This document shows, piece by piece, positions 4,915-9,414 of a stretch of DNA of 64,000 nucleotides; position 1 is the first letter of the stretch; each line of letters begins with the position of its first letter. Under the pieces are notes generated by a model. The model saw only the letters and a program-made list of their open reading frames with translations, was not told the DNA's origin and did not search any database. Position numbers and translations under genes: made by a program. Source of the DNA: Haloplanus sp. HW8-1. GTDB lineage: Archaea; Halobacteriota; Halobacteria; Halobacteriales; Haloferacaceae. The stretch covers positions 3,224,001 through 3,288,000 of the forward strand of contig NZ_CP098518.1 of NCBI RefSeq assembly GCF_023703795.1, given 5' to 3'.

Positions 4915-5253
4915 TCAGAGCAGGAACGTGACACCCCAGAGCGTCACCATCCCGGCTGCGAGCGTCGCGAACATGTTCTCCGTCGCCCACGCGACGCCCG
5001 CGGCGACGACGCCGGCGAACAGGCGGCCGTCGAAGAGTGTCGCGGCCACCGTCGGGCCGGGATCGAGGACGGACGGCGCCACGAGCGCAGCCAACACCGC
5101 CGCGGGGACATACCGGAGCGCTCGCTCGATCCGCGGCGGCATCCCGTCGACGTGGCCGAGGAGGTAGATAAACGAGTACCGGATGCCGAAGGTGAGGACG
5201 CCGACGACGAGGACGACCGCCCAGATCGCGAGCGGTCCGTAGGTGGTCGTCAC
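4915..5253 (-). CDS. azlD: AzlD family branched-chain amino-acid exporter subunit
   Basis: A 112-residue, four-helix membrane protein of the AzlD/YgaH type (GIRYSFIYLL near the N-terminus, VPAAVLAAL and a C-terminal MVTLWG segment). With AzlC it forms an exporter for branched-chain amino acids. The start is a GTG at 5253 that overlaps the AzlC stop codon (GTGA), which fixes the start and shows translational coupling. Length and hydropathy fit the family. An ATG further inside would remove the first membrane helix, so GTG is preferred. Confidence 0.85.
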   Translation of the reverse strand: MTTTYGPLAIWAVVLVVGVLTFGIRYSFIYLLGHVDGMPPRIERALRYVPAAVLAALVAPSVLDPGPTVAATLFDGRLFAGVVAAGVAWATENMFATLAAGMVTLWGVTFLL

Positions 5254-5936
5254 GAGGCCGTCCTCCCCTCGGCGACGACGCCCGCGGCGACGCCGGCGAG
5301 TGCCCCGCCGAGCAACCCGAGGTTCAGCGGCCACCCCGCACCGACGACGGCGATGCTCCCCCCGACGAGCGCCGCGACGGCACGCGGGCGATCCGACAGT
5401 TCGGGAAGCAGCAAGGCGAGAAAGACCAGCGGCACCGCGAAGGAGACTCCCCAGCGATCGGGGATACGCGCCCCGAGGACGGCGCCGGCGGCGGTGGCGA
5501 CCTGCCAGACGAGCCACATGGGAACCGCGACGCCGAGGTAGTACCACCGCCGGTCGGTCGGCCCGTCGGACCGGAACTCGGCGACGGCGAGCGCGTAGGA
5601 CATATCGGTCAGGAGATACGCACACGCCGCCTCCCACCGGCGCCGGAACGATTCGAAGTACGGGGCGATCGAGGCCGAGTACATGCTCATCCGCAGGTTG
5701 ATGACGACGGCCGTGAGGACGACCACGGCGAGGGGCGTGTCGGTGGCGAGGAGGTCGACGGCGGCGAGTTGGGAGGCGCCGGCGAACACGACCACCGACA
5801 GACCCACGGCCTGGACGGGTGAGAGCCCGGCGTCAACCGAGGCGACGCCGGCGACGAGGCCGAACGGAACGACGCCGAGGAGGAGCGGGAGCCCCGCCCG
5901 GACGCCGGTGCGGAGGTCGTCGGGAACCGGAGGCAT
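5250..5936 (-). CDS. azlC: AzlC family branched-chain amino-acid exporter subunit
   Basis: A 228-residue integral membrane protein with about seven helices. AzlC hallmarks are the N-terminal GLPLLLGVVPFGLVAG block, the VVFAGASQLA segment and INLRMSMYSAS. It is the larger subunit of the AzlCD exporter, placed directly before azlD with a 4-bp overlap. The ATG at 5936 gives the standard N-terminus; a TTG at 5963 would add nine poorly conserved residues. The gene order azlC-azlD is the usual one. The substrate is inferred from family knowledge only. Confidence 0.88.
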   Translation of the reverse strand: MPPVPDDLRTGVRAGLPLLLGVVPFGLVAGVASVDAGLSPVQAVGLSVVVFAGASQLAAVDLLATDTPLAVVVLTAVVINLRMSMYSASIAPYFESFRRRWEAACAYLLTDMSYALAVAEFRSDGPTDRRWYYLGVAVPMWLVWQVATAAGAVLGARIPDRWGVSFAVPLVFLALLLPELSDRPRAVAALVGGSIAVVGAGWPLNLGLLGGALAGVAAGVVAEGRTAS

Positions 5937-5987
5937 ATCGGACGGTGGACGGGGGACCGGCAACGACCTTTCGGTTCCGGGCCGGCG

Positions 5988-6368
5988 TCACCGACCGATG
6001 ACGACGGCGTCGCGGATTTCGAGAGCCGTCTCGAACTCGTCGCGACGGTCCGTCTCGGAGCCGATCCGCCGAAGCTGTTCGGCGTGGGCGCGTGCCACCG
6101 CCTCGGTCTCTCGACGGTCGAAGCCGAGGCGGTCGCCCACCGTCTCCCAGTGGTCCGTCGGGACGAGAAACACCTCGCGGCCGTCGTCGTCACCGTCGGC
6201 GACCCGTTCGAACTCGCGGCGGTAAGTGCCGAGGCCGTCGCCGAGGTCGACTTGGACGCTGGCAAGGAGATCAGAGAGTCGGCCGGGGCCGACGCTCGCC
6301 TTCGCGGCGGTGAGCATGAACACCTGCCCGTCGATGGGGGAGTTCGACACGCGGGACACGTCACCCAC
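5988..6368 (-). CDS. uncharacterised 126-residue protein downstream of the SAMP3-like gene
   Basis: I do not recognise a family. The protein is soluble and mixed alpha/beta, beginning around the strand QVFMLTAAKASV and ending in a helix with many Arg and Glu followed by AVVIGR. The best start is a GTG at 6368, which overlaps the end of the preceding gene by 8 bp; GTG at 6359 or 6350 are alternatives. It is the last of three overlapping genes (SAMP3-like, Gly-Gly-ending protein, this one), which suggests a role connected with the ubiquitin-fold protein or molybdopterin metabolism. No catalytic motif is visible. Confidence 0.65.
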   Translation of the reverse strand: MGDVSRVSNSPIDGQVFMLTAAKASVGPGRLSDLLASVQVDLGDGLGTYRREFERVADGDDDGREVFLVPTDHWETVGDRLGFDRRETEAVARAHAEQLRRIGSETDRRDEFETALEIRDAVVIGR

Positions 6369-6630
6369 CCGCACGCATCGCCTTCTGTGCGAAGCGTTCG
6401 ATGAGCGGATCGAGGGTGTCGGGATCACCCTCGAACACGAAGTCGATCTGGGTGAGCGACACCGACGGTCCGACGCCGACGGTCTGCGCCGAGAGGTCGG
6501 CCGCCCAGTCGTCGCCCTCGACGCGGTCGTCCGCCACCTGCTCGGCGCCGAGGGTCTCGAGGTACTGGATCGCCAGGCGCTTGGAAATTCCACGGAAGGA
6601 GCGCTCCCGGCGTACCCAGTCGTCGGTCAT
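6361..6630 (-). CDS. 89-residue protein ending in Gly-Gly, coupled to the MoaD/SAMP3-like gene
   Basis: A small soluble protein with a basic N-terminal helix (SFRGISKRLAIQYLE), then a beta segment (SVSLTQIDFVFEG) and a C-terminal helix, finishing MRAGG. It resembles, from memory, the DUF1952 domain that in some bacteria and archaea is fused to the C-terminus of MoaD; that would explain its position. The ATG at 6630 overlaps the stop of the upstream MoaD-like gene (ATGA), and its own stop overlaps the next gene. The C-terminal Gly-Gly is notable because the upstream ubiquitin-fold protein lacks a free diglycine end. Confidence 0.72.
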   Translation of the reverse strand: MTDDWVRRERSFRGISKRLAIQYLETLGAEQVADDRVEGDDWAADLSAQTVGVGPSVSLTQIDFVFEGDPDTLDPLIERFAQKAMRAGG

Positions 6631-6911
6631 GTGCCGCCCGCCACCGGCGGGAACACCGACAACGTGTCGCCGTCTTCCAGTACCGTCTCGGTTCCCTCCA
6701 TGTGGAGCACCTCCCGCCCGTTTTTCAGGATGTTGAGATTCGGCTGCAGGTCGCCCTGGTCGTCGATCAGTTTGCCTTCGAGGCCGTCGTACGCCGATTC
6801 GAGCGTCAGGAGAACCTCGCCGACGGTCGCGCCGTCCTCGAACTCGCGTTCGAGGGTCTTCTGGCCGACAGCCTCGCGGAACGTCGCGAAAAACCGCAGT
6901 TCCAAGTCCAT
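6627..6911 (-). CDS. ubiquitin-fold MoaD/SAMP3-like protein with GGT C-terminus
   Basis: A 94-residue beta-grasp protein. The N-terminus LELRFFATFREAVGQK and the block NLNILKNGREV are typical of MoaD and of haloarchaeal SAMP3-type small modifiers, which donate sulfur for molybdopterin synthesis and can be conjugated to protein lysines after adenylation of a C-terminal Gly-Gly. Here the predicted end is PPVAGGT: one threonine follows the diglycine because the last codons read GGC GGC ACA TGA. The ACATGA creates the ATGA overlap with the next gene. Either the Thr is removed after translation or the protein is not activated in the usual way. Start ATG 6911 is unambiguous. Confidence 0.85.
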   Translation of the reverse strand: MDLELRFFATFREAVGQKTLEREFEDGATVGEVLLTLESAYDGLEGKLIDDQGDLQPNLNILKNGREVLHMEGTETVLEDGDTLSVFPPVAGGT

Positions 6912-6969: not shown

Positions 6970-7356
6970 CTAACGGTCGCTCAGGCGGATGCCGTCCTCG
7001 ACGGTTCGGTAGTTGCGCTCCCGATCGAGGCGCTCGGCGACCCAGCCGACCTCCTGAATCTGCATGATGAGGTCCGCCTGCAGGTTCCGCCACGCGATGG
7101 CGTAGATGGGCGACTGCCCCCACGCACGGAGTTCGGGGACGAACTCGTCGTACTGGTCGAGTTGATCCTCCAGTCGTTCGAGGGCGTCGACGACGCCCTG
7201 TGCGGCCTCGCGTTCGTCCGCCGCGGCGTCGACGGCCTCGTTGAGTCGGGCTTCGAGGCCGGCGACCGCCCGCTGCATGTCCTGCCGGGCCGCGTCGTCG
7301 TCGTCGGGGAGCGAGTCGAGGATCTGTCGGGGAACGCCGAGGTCGAATTCGTCCAT
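6970..7356 (-). CDS. uncharacterised alpha-helical protein (128 residues)
   Basis: An acidic, mostly helical protein with no recognised family. Residues about 15-75 have a spacing of Leu/Ala and charged residues compatible with a coiled coil, and a conserved-looking aromatic block (SPIYAIAWRNLQ) follows. No signal peptide, membrane helix or metal-binding motif is seen. The ATG at 7356 is chosen because the frame upstream of it is Cys/Pro/Thr-rich non-coding-like sequence. It stands alone between the SAMP3-like operon and the AOR/zinc-ribbon pair, all on the same strand. Confidence 0.65.
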   Translation of the reverse strand: MDEFDLGVPRQILDSLPDDDDAARQDMQRAVAGLEARLNEAVDAAADEREAAQGVVDALERLEDQLDQYDEFVPELRAWGQSPIYAIAWRNLQADLIMQIQEVGWVAERLDRERNYRTVEDGIRLSDR

Positions 7357-7396: not shown

Positions 7397-7561
7397 TCAG
7401 TCCAGAAAGTCACGCAGGTCGGCCGCGCAGGACCGACAGAGCAACACTCGAAGCTCGCCGTCGGCGTCGAGGAGGTCGAGTGCCCCGTAGACGTGTCCCG
7501 GTTCGATCGTCCCACCACAGCGATGACAGTCGTGGGGGCGGGAGGGGTTCGACCCGGTCAC
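7397..7561 (-). CDS. 54-residue zinc-ribbon protein coupled to the AOR homologue
   Basis: A microprotein with two CxxC knuckles: CHRCG near residue 12 and CRSC near 43, separated by a short beta strand region (GHVYGALDLLDADGE). This is a minimal treble-clef/zinc-ribbon fold. The start is GTG at 7561, overlapping the stop of the AOR homologue by 4 bp (GTGA), so it is translated from the same message. Its job is unknown; possible roles are an electron-transfer-independent structural partner, a maturation factor or a regulator of the AOR-like enzyme. The pairing itself is the best clue. Confidence 0.7.
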   Translation of the reverse strand: MTGSNPSRPHDCHRCGGTIEPGHVYGALDLLDADGELRVLLCRSCAADLRDFLD

Positions 7562-9414
7562 CGTCCGTGGCCGTGGTTCCACCCGCGGCGGGGGCCGTCG
7601 TGTCGCTCTCCGTCGGCGGTCCGTGGACGGGTGGTCGGCGCGTCCCCGAGGGGCGTCCCGGCGTCGACGACGGACCCGAGGCCCAGTCGCTCGACCGTCT
7701 CGGCGGTCGGGACGCCGTCCGCCGACCACCCACGGGCCGCGTAGTAGGCGTCGAGCATGGTCTCGAACGCCTCGCGGTCGACGGTGCGGCCGGCGGCCGG
7801 CCCGTCGGGGAGCGGCTCCTCGAACAGCGCCGGCAGGGAGTCGTCGTCGCGGCCGAACCCCTCGCGGACGTTGAACAGGCGGACGAGCGTCCAGATCCGC
7901 TCGCCGACCGTCGCCAGCGACTCGCGGTCGTAGTCGAGGCCGACGGCCGACAGCCACTCCGCGCCGAGGTCCTCCCACATGGTTTCGCCGGCGAAGTCGT
8001 CGACGACGAGGCTCCAAAGCGTCGACCGGACGTTCTGTGCGCCGATCACGGTGGCGACGCGGTCGGCGGTCGTCCACGCGTCGCGGGCGAAGGCCTCCCG
8101 CTCGACGGGGCGGGCCCGGCGGTGACAGCCGCCGCGGTCGCTGGTGGCGTAGGCGAGTGCCATCCCCGCCGCGCCGCGCGGGTCGTACGCCGGCAGTTCC
8201 ATCGACTTCACCGTCGGCACCGCGCCGGCGCCGTAGTGCTCGCGGGCGGCCGCCACCCCGTCGGCGAGCGTGTCGCCGAGGGCGGTCGACCGCGCCGCGA
8301 TCGCCGCGAGCAACCCCTCGGCCGCGTCGGCGTCGCCGAAGGCGAGATCCGGCCCGGGATCGATCGCGCCCTCGGCCGCGGCGCGGGTGGCCCAGGCGAC
8401 GGCGTTGCCCGCGCTGATGGCGTCCATGCCGAGGTGGTCACAGGCGGCGACGAGACGGGCCACGTCCCCGAAGTCGTCGATGCCGAGTCCCGCCCCGAGG
8501 GACATGAGCGCGCCCCCCCGGGGGACCGACTCGCCGTCCCCGGCGTCGACGCGGAAGCCGCCCGGCACCGCGTCGTCCTCGTTCTCGCGACCGGTCGCCG
8601 CCTCGCGGACTGCCTCGACGCCGATGTCGCCGGCGTCCTCGAAGCGGCCGCCCTGCCAGCCGCGAGTCGAGAGGACGCCCACCTCGTTGGCGAAGTCGAC
8701 GCTCTCGACCGTCTCGCCGGCGGCCTGCCAGCGGCCGGTGTCGTCGTCGCGGTAGGCGGTGCCGTACCGCTCCCGGAGGTCGGCGAGCGCCGCGGGGGGG
8801 GCCGGCGGGTCGCCGCGCACCGCCACGGCCTTCAGGCGCTTTGCCCCCATGACGGCCCCGGCCCCGCCCCGACCGGCGTGGTGGTCGCCGCCGTCGCAGG
8901 CGATCGTGGCGTAGGCGACCCGCTTTTCGCCCGCCGGCCCGACGCAGGCCACGGCGCCGTCGAGGGCCGCGTCGGTTGCCGCGATGTCGGCCCCCCAGAG
9001 GTCGCTCGCGTTCTCGATCCGGACCTCGCCGTCCGCGACGACGAGCGTCGTCGGGGCGTCGGCGACGCCCTGGATCAGCAGGCCGAACGCCTCGGGGAGC
9101 GCGCCGGCGAGGGCGTCGGCGAACCGGCCGCCGCTGTAGGAGTCGAGGAAGGCGCCGGTCAGCGGCGACTTGGTGACCGCCGCGTATCGCGATTCGCCGG
9201 GGAGGTAGCCCGAGAGCGGGCCGAGCAGGAAACAGAGGCGGTTGTCCGGCCCCAGCGGGTCGGTGCCCGCGTCGAGTTCGTCGTAGAGGTAGCGGGCGCC
9301 GAGGCCCTTGCCGCCCAGCACCTCCCGCCGCCAGTCCTCCGGGACGCGCTCGCGGGAGACGGTCCCGGCGGAGAGGTCGACCCGCAACACGTCGCGCCGG
9401 ACTGGCGGTGACAT
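7558..9414 (-). CDS. aldehyde:ferredoxin oxidoreductase family protein lacking Fe-S cysteines
   Basis: A 618-residue tungsten/molybdenum bis-pterin enzyme homologue. Pterin-site blocks are well kept: GGKGLGARYL (N-terminus), TKSPLTGAFLDSYSGG, AGRGGAGAVMGAKRLKA, CDHLGMDAISAGN and RGGCHRRA. In characterised AORs a [4Fe-4S] cluster is held by a CxxCxxxC motif in the middle of the protein plus a fourth cysteine later. Neither is present: only five Cys occur in the whole protein and none are in CxxC spacing. The middle segment (after the TRGWQGG block) reads through acidic residues instead. The enzyme may bind cofactor without a cluster or act by another route. Coupled downstream to a zinc-ribbon microprotein. 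Confidence 0.82.
   Translation of the reverse strand: MSPPVRRDVLRVDLSAGTVSRERVPEDWRREVLGGKGLGARYLYDELDAGTDPLGPDNRLCFLLGPLSGYLPGESRYAAVTKSPLTGAFLDSYSGGRFADALAGALPEAFGLLIQGVADAPTTLVVADGEVRIENASDLWGADIAATDAALDGAVACVGPAGEKRVAYATIACDGGDHHAGRGGAGAVMGAKRLKAVAVRGDPPAPPAALADLRERYGTAYRDDDTGRWQAAGETVESVDFANEVGVLSTRGWQGGRFEDAGDIGVEAVREAATGRENEDDAVPGGFRVDAGDGESVPRGGALMSLGAGLGIDDFGDVARLVAACDHLGMDAISAGNAVAWATRAAAEGAIDPGPDLAFGDADAAEGLLAAIAARSTALGDTLADGVAAAREHYGAGAVPTVKSMELPAYDPRGAAGMALAYATSDRGGCHRRARPVEREAFARDAWTTADRVATVIGAQNVRSTLWSLVVDDFAGETMWEDLGAEWLSAVGLDYDRESLATVGERIWTLVRLFNVREGFGRDDDSLPALFEEPLPDGPAAGRTVDREAFETMLDAYYAARGWSADGVPTAETVERLGLGSVVDAGTPLGDAPTTRPRTADGERHDGPRRGWNHGHGR

Follow-up and report, generated by a model that had tools for sequence, protein, structure and literature searches.

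The question raised by this locus was how a protein of the MoaD/SAMP type could act when its diglycine was not at the C-terminus as encoded, and what part was played by the overlapping gene, the product of which did end in Gly-Gly. MoaD, ThiS, and the SAMPs, as carriers, need a free glycine carboxylate. The window, by which we mean the whole 64,000-nucleotide stretch analyzed, was part of a haloarchaeal chromosome (Haloplanus sp. HW8-1; C1:3224001-3288000 of the source genome, G000). Gene A (6627..6911, minus strand), assigned from family profile matches and translation, encoded a SAMP3/MoaD-like beta-grasp protein of 94 amino acids with the end VAGGT. Its 3′ codons, GTG GCG GGC GGC ACA TGA, read V-A-G-G-T-stop in the window sequence, and the Gly-Gly is exposed only on removal of the Thr. 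The segment GGC GGC ACA TGA (6627..6638, minus strand), translated and compared over 90 loci, comprised the Gly-Gly, the added Thr codon, and the stop; the ATGA at 6627-6630 served both as the stop of A and as the start of B, giving a 4-bp overlap. Gene A matched ThiS in Pfam (E 7.5e-16) and the SAMP1 model in NCBIfam (E 1.1e-31), where moaD_arch was also over the cut-off, and its closest solved structure among the PDB sequences was 2m19 (E 3.7e-35), which we take to be the Haloferax volcanii protein known as SAMP3 (HVO_2177). The identity of A with this protein was 64% over the full length; both belong to the same family, and A has one Thr more. Gene A is therefore a MoaD/SAMP protein of the beta-grasp MoaD/ThiS sequence family. 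The 3′ codons of gene B (6361..6630, minus strand) were GCG ATG CGT GCG GGT GGG TGA, read as A-M-R-A-G-G-stop, the last three of them (6361..6369, minus strand) being the terminal Gly-Gly and stop by translation, a feature conserved in relatives. The original prediction that A ended GGT and that the 89-amino-acid product of the overlapping next gene ended AGG was thus correct on both counts.

To see what follows the Gly-Gly of A in relatives, gene A was gathered across the family of the source genome (148 genomes), and 90 loci were inspected in detail. The FPPVAGG of A was identical in all 90 loci, the window's included. A ended exactly at the Gly-Gly in 29 loci, and additional sequence was present beyond it in the other 61, which belonged to 14 genera. 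This additional sequence consisted of 1-2 residues in 27 loci and of 3-47 residues in 17; in a further 17 loci, from six genera, A was fused in frame to B with a linker of variable length and no stop between them. The first residue past the Gly-Gly in the 61 loci was Ala (24), Thr (12), Ser (9), Gly (4), or Val (3), and more rarely Cys, Arg, Asp, or Ile (2 each) or His (1). When genera were sorted by the end of A, something past the Gly-Gly was found in 14, a clean end in 11, and both in three. Of 12 species in the window's own genus, 10 had an added Ala or Thr and 2 had no added residue. Comparable tails in 9 further species of this genus and in 13 further genera, from independent genomes, contradicted the idea that the end of A had been misread or misassembled; no support for such an error was found, and we regard it as a practically negligible explanation.

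The extra ACA codon had also been ascribed to the ATGA overlap with gene B. One-residue tails did mostly coincide with ATGA overlaps in the loci compared; however, three loci (L018, L019, and L024) had GGA TGA, which yields the same ATGA overlap with A ending at the Gly-Gly. The overlap does not force a Thr, and it was rejected as the cause of the extra codon. The same coincidence could be taken to mean that the extra residue is neutral, having been fixed by the overlap with B, and that A either functions without processing or is a copy in decay. This is very unlikely, since the Gly-Gly was still invariant in front of tails as long as 47 residues as well as in whole-domain fusions, tail-less overlaps occurred in the three loci above, and the known carriers have the requirement for a free glycine stated at the outset. 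The conservation of A stopped exactly at the Gly-Gly and the next residue was variable, which points to a trimmed precursor. A buried or useless Gly-Gly should decay in tailed or fused copies of A, and because none did, the simplest reading is a precursor that would be cut after the Gly-Gly. SAMP3 of H. volcanii, like the proteins most closely related to it, ended cleanly at the Gly-Gly, so trimming is not required throughout the family. Naturally occurring forms range from a free Gly-Gly over tailed ends to complete fusions, a gradation which indicates that the SAMPs of archaea, like ubiquitin, are often synthesized as precursors.

Trimming of A would be in line with what has been published for related proteins. 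HvJAMM1 cleaves a linear fusion of SAMP1 and MoaE precisely behind the Gly, both in vitro and in cells (PMC4443979), and a cut after the Gly-Gly of Mycobacterium tuberculosis MoaX, a MoaD-MoaE fusion, is required for its function (PMC4326299). In MoaX and other MoaD-MoaE fusions the Gly-Gly lies hidden behind further C-terminal sequence until a protease takes this off (PMC4326299), as we propose for A, and the pro-ubiquitin of Caldiarchaeum has a C-terminal extension of the same kind, likewise removed by a protease (PMC6043591). The partner of MoaD in MoaX is MoaE, and the Caldiarchaeum extension is a short tail, whereas A is joined by a DUF1952-type partner with a Gly-Gly of its own. The source genome encoded two JAMM proteins with HSHP...SxxD motifs and two ThiF/E1-like enzymes. 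The original prediction had offered two alternatives, that the Thr must first be trimmed, as in pro-ubiquitins, or that B had taken over the role of A. The first has strong comparative support and is probable: the Gly-Gly was kept in 61 of 61 loci in which it was not terminal, including the 17 fusions, and JAMM cleavage of a SAMP linear fusion has been published (PMC4443979). The second was not supported as worded, since the Gly-Gly of A never decayed. B resembled a DUF1952 relative rather than a ubiquitin-fold substitute; B as the replacement of a decayed SAMP3 was rejected on the invariance of the Gly-Gly of A.

B, too, had a conserved end: its last seven residues were KAMRAGG in 89 of 90 loci, and in the one exception, L097, the frame ran on. 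In SAMP3-linked copies of B from further families of the order the end was MRAGG, IRAGG, or VRSGG, and in divergent paralogues located away from SAMP3 the Gly-Gly was lost, with the ends FRAPG and FRASG. Taken together with the FPPVAGG of A, the KAMRAGG of B placed the two ends beyond chance, and coincidence was rejected for the Gly-Gly of B, which was also retained across families. A Gly-Gly of B that was not conserved in orthologues had been named as evidence against the original prediction; the opposite, strong conservation, was observed. Judging from this conservation, both Gly-Gly ends, that of A and that of B, appear to matter. In a near-identical Haloferax-type locus (L075), A was identical to 2m19 at 91 of 92 positions and B lay one base downstream with the end KAMRAGG; the B gene of H. 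volcanii, directly after A as in the window, was inferred from this locus. The continuation in L097 (G087:C31), a SAMP3-B fusion, was low-complexity sequence beyond KAMRAGG and is possibly a frameshift or a real extension. One genome carried two unlinked paralogues of B: L129:3103-3480, closely similar and preceded by an alpha/beta hydrolase gene, and L130:3093-3437, which ended KAFRAPG.

The sequence of B showed no significant match in Pfam, NCBIfam, or the PDB sequences, and weak matches to DUF5376 and HALC2_065 were treated as chance. We found a counterpart in the Thermus MoaD-related protein (PDB 1v8c, PF09189), a single polypeptide in which a MoaD domain ending VAGG is followed by a similar, glycine-ended domain and the gene of which adjoins that of aldehyde:ferredoxin oxidoreductase (AOR); in the window, A and B are instead two overlapping genes. 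A scan identified about 20 Thermaceae MoaD genes of this type, most of which extended past VAGG into a domain of approximately 80 residues ending RGGG, or RGGA in two of them. The domain behind VAGG in Thermus was Pfam DUF1952 (PF09189, E 4e-43). Against the Pfam model of PF09189 the window's B gave no match, and one of 18 relatives gave E 0.13; however, profile comparison of B with the Thermus DUF1952 domain by hhalign gave a probability of 91.7 and E 8e-7 over 80 columns, covering the whole length with the Gly-Gly aligned. An AF2 model of B built from its sequence alone, with no alignment, had a pLDDT of 73.6, and its best Foldseek match was 1v8c_A (E 7.8e-3), the aligned part being the C-terminal domain (residues 82-165). 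A model built with an alignment reached a pLDDT of 90.5 and matched 1v8c_A with a TM of 0.77 and a Z of 12.4 (rmsd 3.0, 84 aligned; next best Z 8.6), values that are partly circular because that alignment included Thermus sequences. The predicted order was strand-helix-strands-helix, and the best match was the C-terminal domain of 1v8c, not its MoaD domain. On the basis of profiles and predicted models, B is a relative of DUF1952 that falls under the Pfam cut-off, a divergent DUF1952/TBP-like domain. It is not recognizable as a beta-grasp protein in its models, which gave a beta-grasp reading no support, an absent match of this kind excluding nothing. Two Thermaceae bins (L153 and L154) contained the same type of MoaD without the DUF1952 domain, one ending cleanly at VAGG and the other with an unrelated tail ending RARGG.

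B most likely corresponds to arCOG06308, which in the part of Makarova and Koonin (2010) considered here is a small TBP-like protein of Halobacteria with GG at its C-terminus, encoded beside the MoaD-like arCOG00536 and two small proteins (PMC2948915). Every feature stated in that part fits B, the match being one by description. The same part of the article does not mention a SAMP3 fusion, tails past the Gly-Gly of SAMP3, or a strict co-occurrence with AOR (PMC2948915). It does propose arCOG06308 as an analogue of ubiquitin-like proteins (PMC2948915), and B might accordingly be a ubiquitin-like modifier or sulfur carrier in its own right, a second one lacking the beta-grasp fold, with a Gly-Gly that would be adenylated by an E1 for attachment to proteins or delivery of sulfur alongside SAMP3. 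The terminal Gly-Gly in every SAMP3-linked copy examined and its loss in the divergent unlinked paralogues agree with this, as does the near absence of any tail past the Gly-Gly of B (none in 89 of 90 loci). However, E1 activation of B is purely hypothetical, the last Gly is not absolute in the two Thermaceae fusions that end RGGA, and the unlinked paralogue L129 retains KAMRAGG; we consider this reading possible, if somewhat doubtful.

The genes around A and B pointed to a specific pathway. Upstream of A lay gene D (6970..7356, minus strand), encoding a 128-amino-acid protein with a homologue near A-B in at least 60 of 90 loci, a lower bound as the flanks were only 1-2 kb, and, farther upstream on the same strand, an AOR gene (7558..9414, minus strand) identified by AFOR_C (E 3.2e-92) and AFOR_N (E 3.3e-65). 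Directly downstream of B, gene C (5988..6350, minus strand) encoded a small protein that matched no Pfam family; having a homologue near A-B in 85 of 90 loci, it may be part of the A-B module. AOR was within 10 kb of at least 52 of 124 A genes when the best AOR matches per genome were considered. In each of the 11 named Thermus loci that encoded the MoaD-DUF1952 fusion, the fusion was directly behind an AOR gene; in the Thermaceae bins it was not adjacent, and AOR was present somewhere in 11 of 11 Thermaceae genomes tested.

Among 251 genomes combined, 188 had both B and AOR, three had AOR only, none had B only, and 60 had neither, a co-occurrence that is a correlation among related species. 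In the family sample B and AOR were each found in 125 of 148 genomes, and the AOR-less genomes listed were all among those without B; one genome (G114) gave only a weak B match (E 0.003) and would be the 126th with B. Of the 117 genomes in the order sample, 75 had both A and B and none had just one of the two; AOR occurred in those 75 and in three more, which were incomplete (78-88% complete). Regardless of AOR, MoaE was present in 146 of the 148 genomes of the family and in every one of the 129 of good quality. Because MoaE is nearly universal in the family, the distribution of A and B follows AOR rather than molybdopterin synthesis as a whole. In at least eight genera, species of both states were found, with A, B, and AOR switching together, indicating joint gains or losses on several occasions. 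The nearly exact co-occurrence of the pair with AOR, an aldehyde oxidoreductase of the tungsten type, suggests a dedicated carrier module that would require trimming before it functions.

SAMP3 has been studied as an archaeal ubiquitin-like modifier of unsettled metabolic purpose. A direct involvement of SAMP3 in molybdopterin synthesis was discounted, since DMSO reductase works without it, and it was found as a conjugate on K240 of MoaE (PMC4443979); these results suggest a regulatory role and speak against a carrier. SAMP3 could accordingly be mainly an inhibitor or modifier of MoaE that tracks AOR because cells with AOR must switch molybdopterin synthase between uses, the tail of A being removed solely for conjugation. 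We think this rather unlikely: among the family's well-sequenced genomes, the 17 without AOR all kept MoaE and lacked both A and B, and AOR-linked MoaD proteins elsewhere have been proposed or shown to be carriers (PMC1779556; PMC11323500). Iyer et al. (2006) proposed that MoaD genes adjacent to AOR serve the tungsten cofactor, in a list that contains Thermus and from which haloarchaea are absent (PMC1779556), and in Thermococcus kodakarensis an enzyme with a tungsten cofactor depends on the MoaD-type UblB and on the two glycines of that protein (PMC11323500). AOR and DMSO reductase are different enzymes, and the dispensability of SAMP3 for DMSO reductase therefore says nothing about a role for AOR. 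That SAMP3 tracks AOR and not MoaE predicts AOR as the exact enzyme on which SAMP3 should be tested.

We consider it probable that A is a pro-SAMP3 that is trimmed, and that A and B form a module dedicated to the metal-pterin cofactor of AOR, with A as the sulfur carrier. The residue or residues past the Gly-Gly of A would be cut off, most likely by a JAMM metalloprotease, and the Gly-Gly of trimmed A would be activated by an E1 enzyme (UbaA) through adenylation and thiocarboxylation. As a thiocarboxylate, trimmed A would then bring sulfur to molybdopterin synthase for the AOR cofactor. We infer these steps of protease action, sulfur transfer, and direction to AOR from what was directly observed: the sequences, their conservation, the fusions, the relation of B to Thermus DUF1952, and the co-occurrence with AOR. 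B would be the obligate partner of A, encoded by an overlapping or a neighboring gene or supplied as the C-terminal half of a joint polypeptide, and its Gly-Gly may act in the same pathway as a docking tail or second carrier. For gene B, flagged in 2010 and apparently uncharacterized since, the analysis provides a relative by structure, a counterpart in bacteria, and a pathway in which it likely takes part. A bolder version, which we hold to be quite improbable, is that haloarchaea and Thermus share a two-headed sulfur carrier for the AOR cofactor, in which a beta-grasp MoaD and a TBP-like domain would both be activated by E1. If true, two proteins of unrelated folds, both Gly-Gly-ended and sometimes cut from one pro-protein, might supply, for example, the two sulfurs of the dithiolene, and B would be a Gly-Gly sulfur carrier without the beta-grasp fold, the first of its kind.

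Some further features of the source genome were observed. It contained six AFOR_C matches, and several AORs could share the single SAMP3-B module. Genes for the AzlC and AzlD branched-chain amino acid exporter (window 4915-5963, minus strand) lay directly downstream of the module. SAMP1 of the source genome (L001, G000:C1:1923253-1923525) was also tailed, ending VSGGTQ; SAMP1 of three congeners ended VSGGRQ or VSGGRA, and most other SAMP1 genes inspected stopped at the Gly-Gly. A third ubiquitin-like protein, of the ThiS type, ended ASGGRV with residues beyond its Gly-Gly, and its gene lay with those of a ThiF E1-like enzyme and a JAMM protease inside 3.6 kb (G000:C1:2374351-2377957; L005, L201, and L223), possibly forming a separate Ubl-E1-JAMM cassette.
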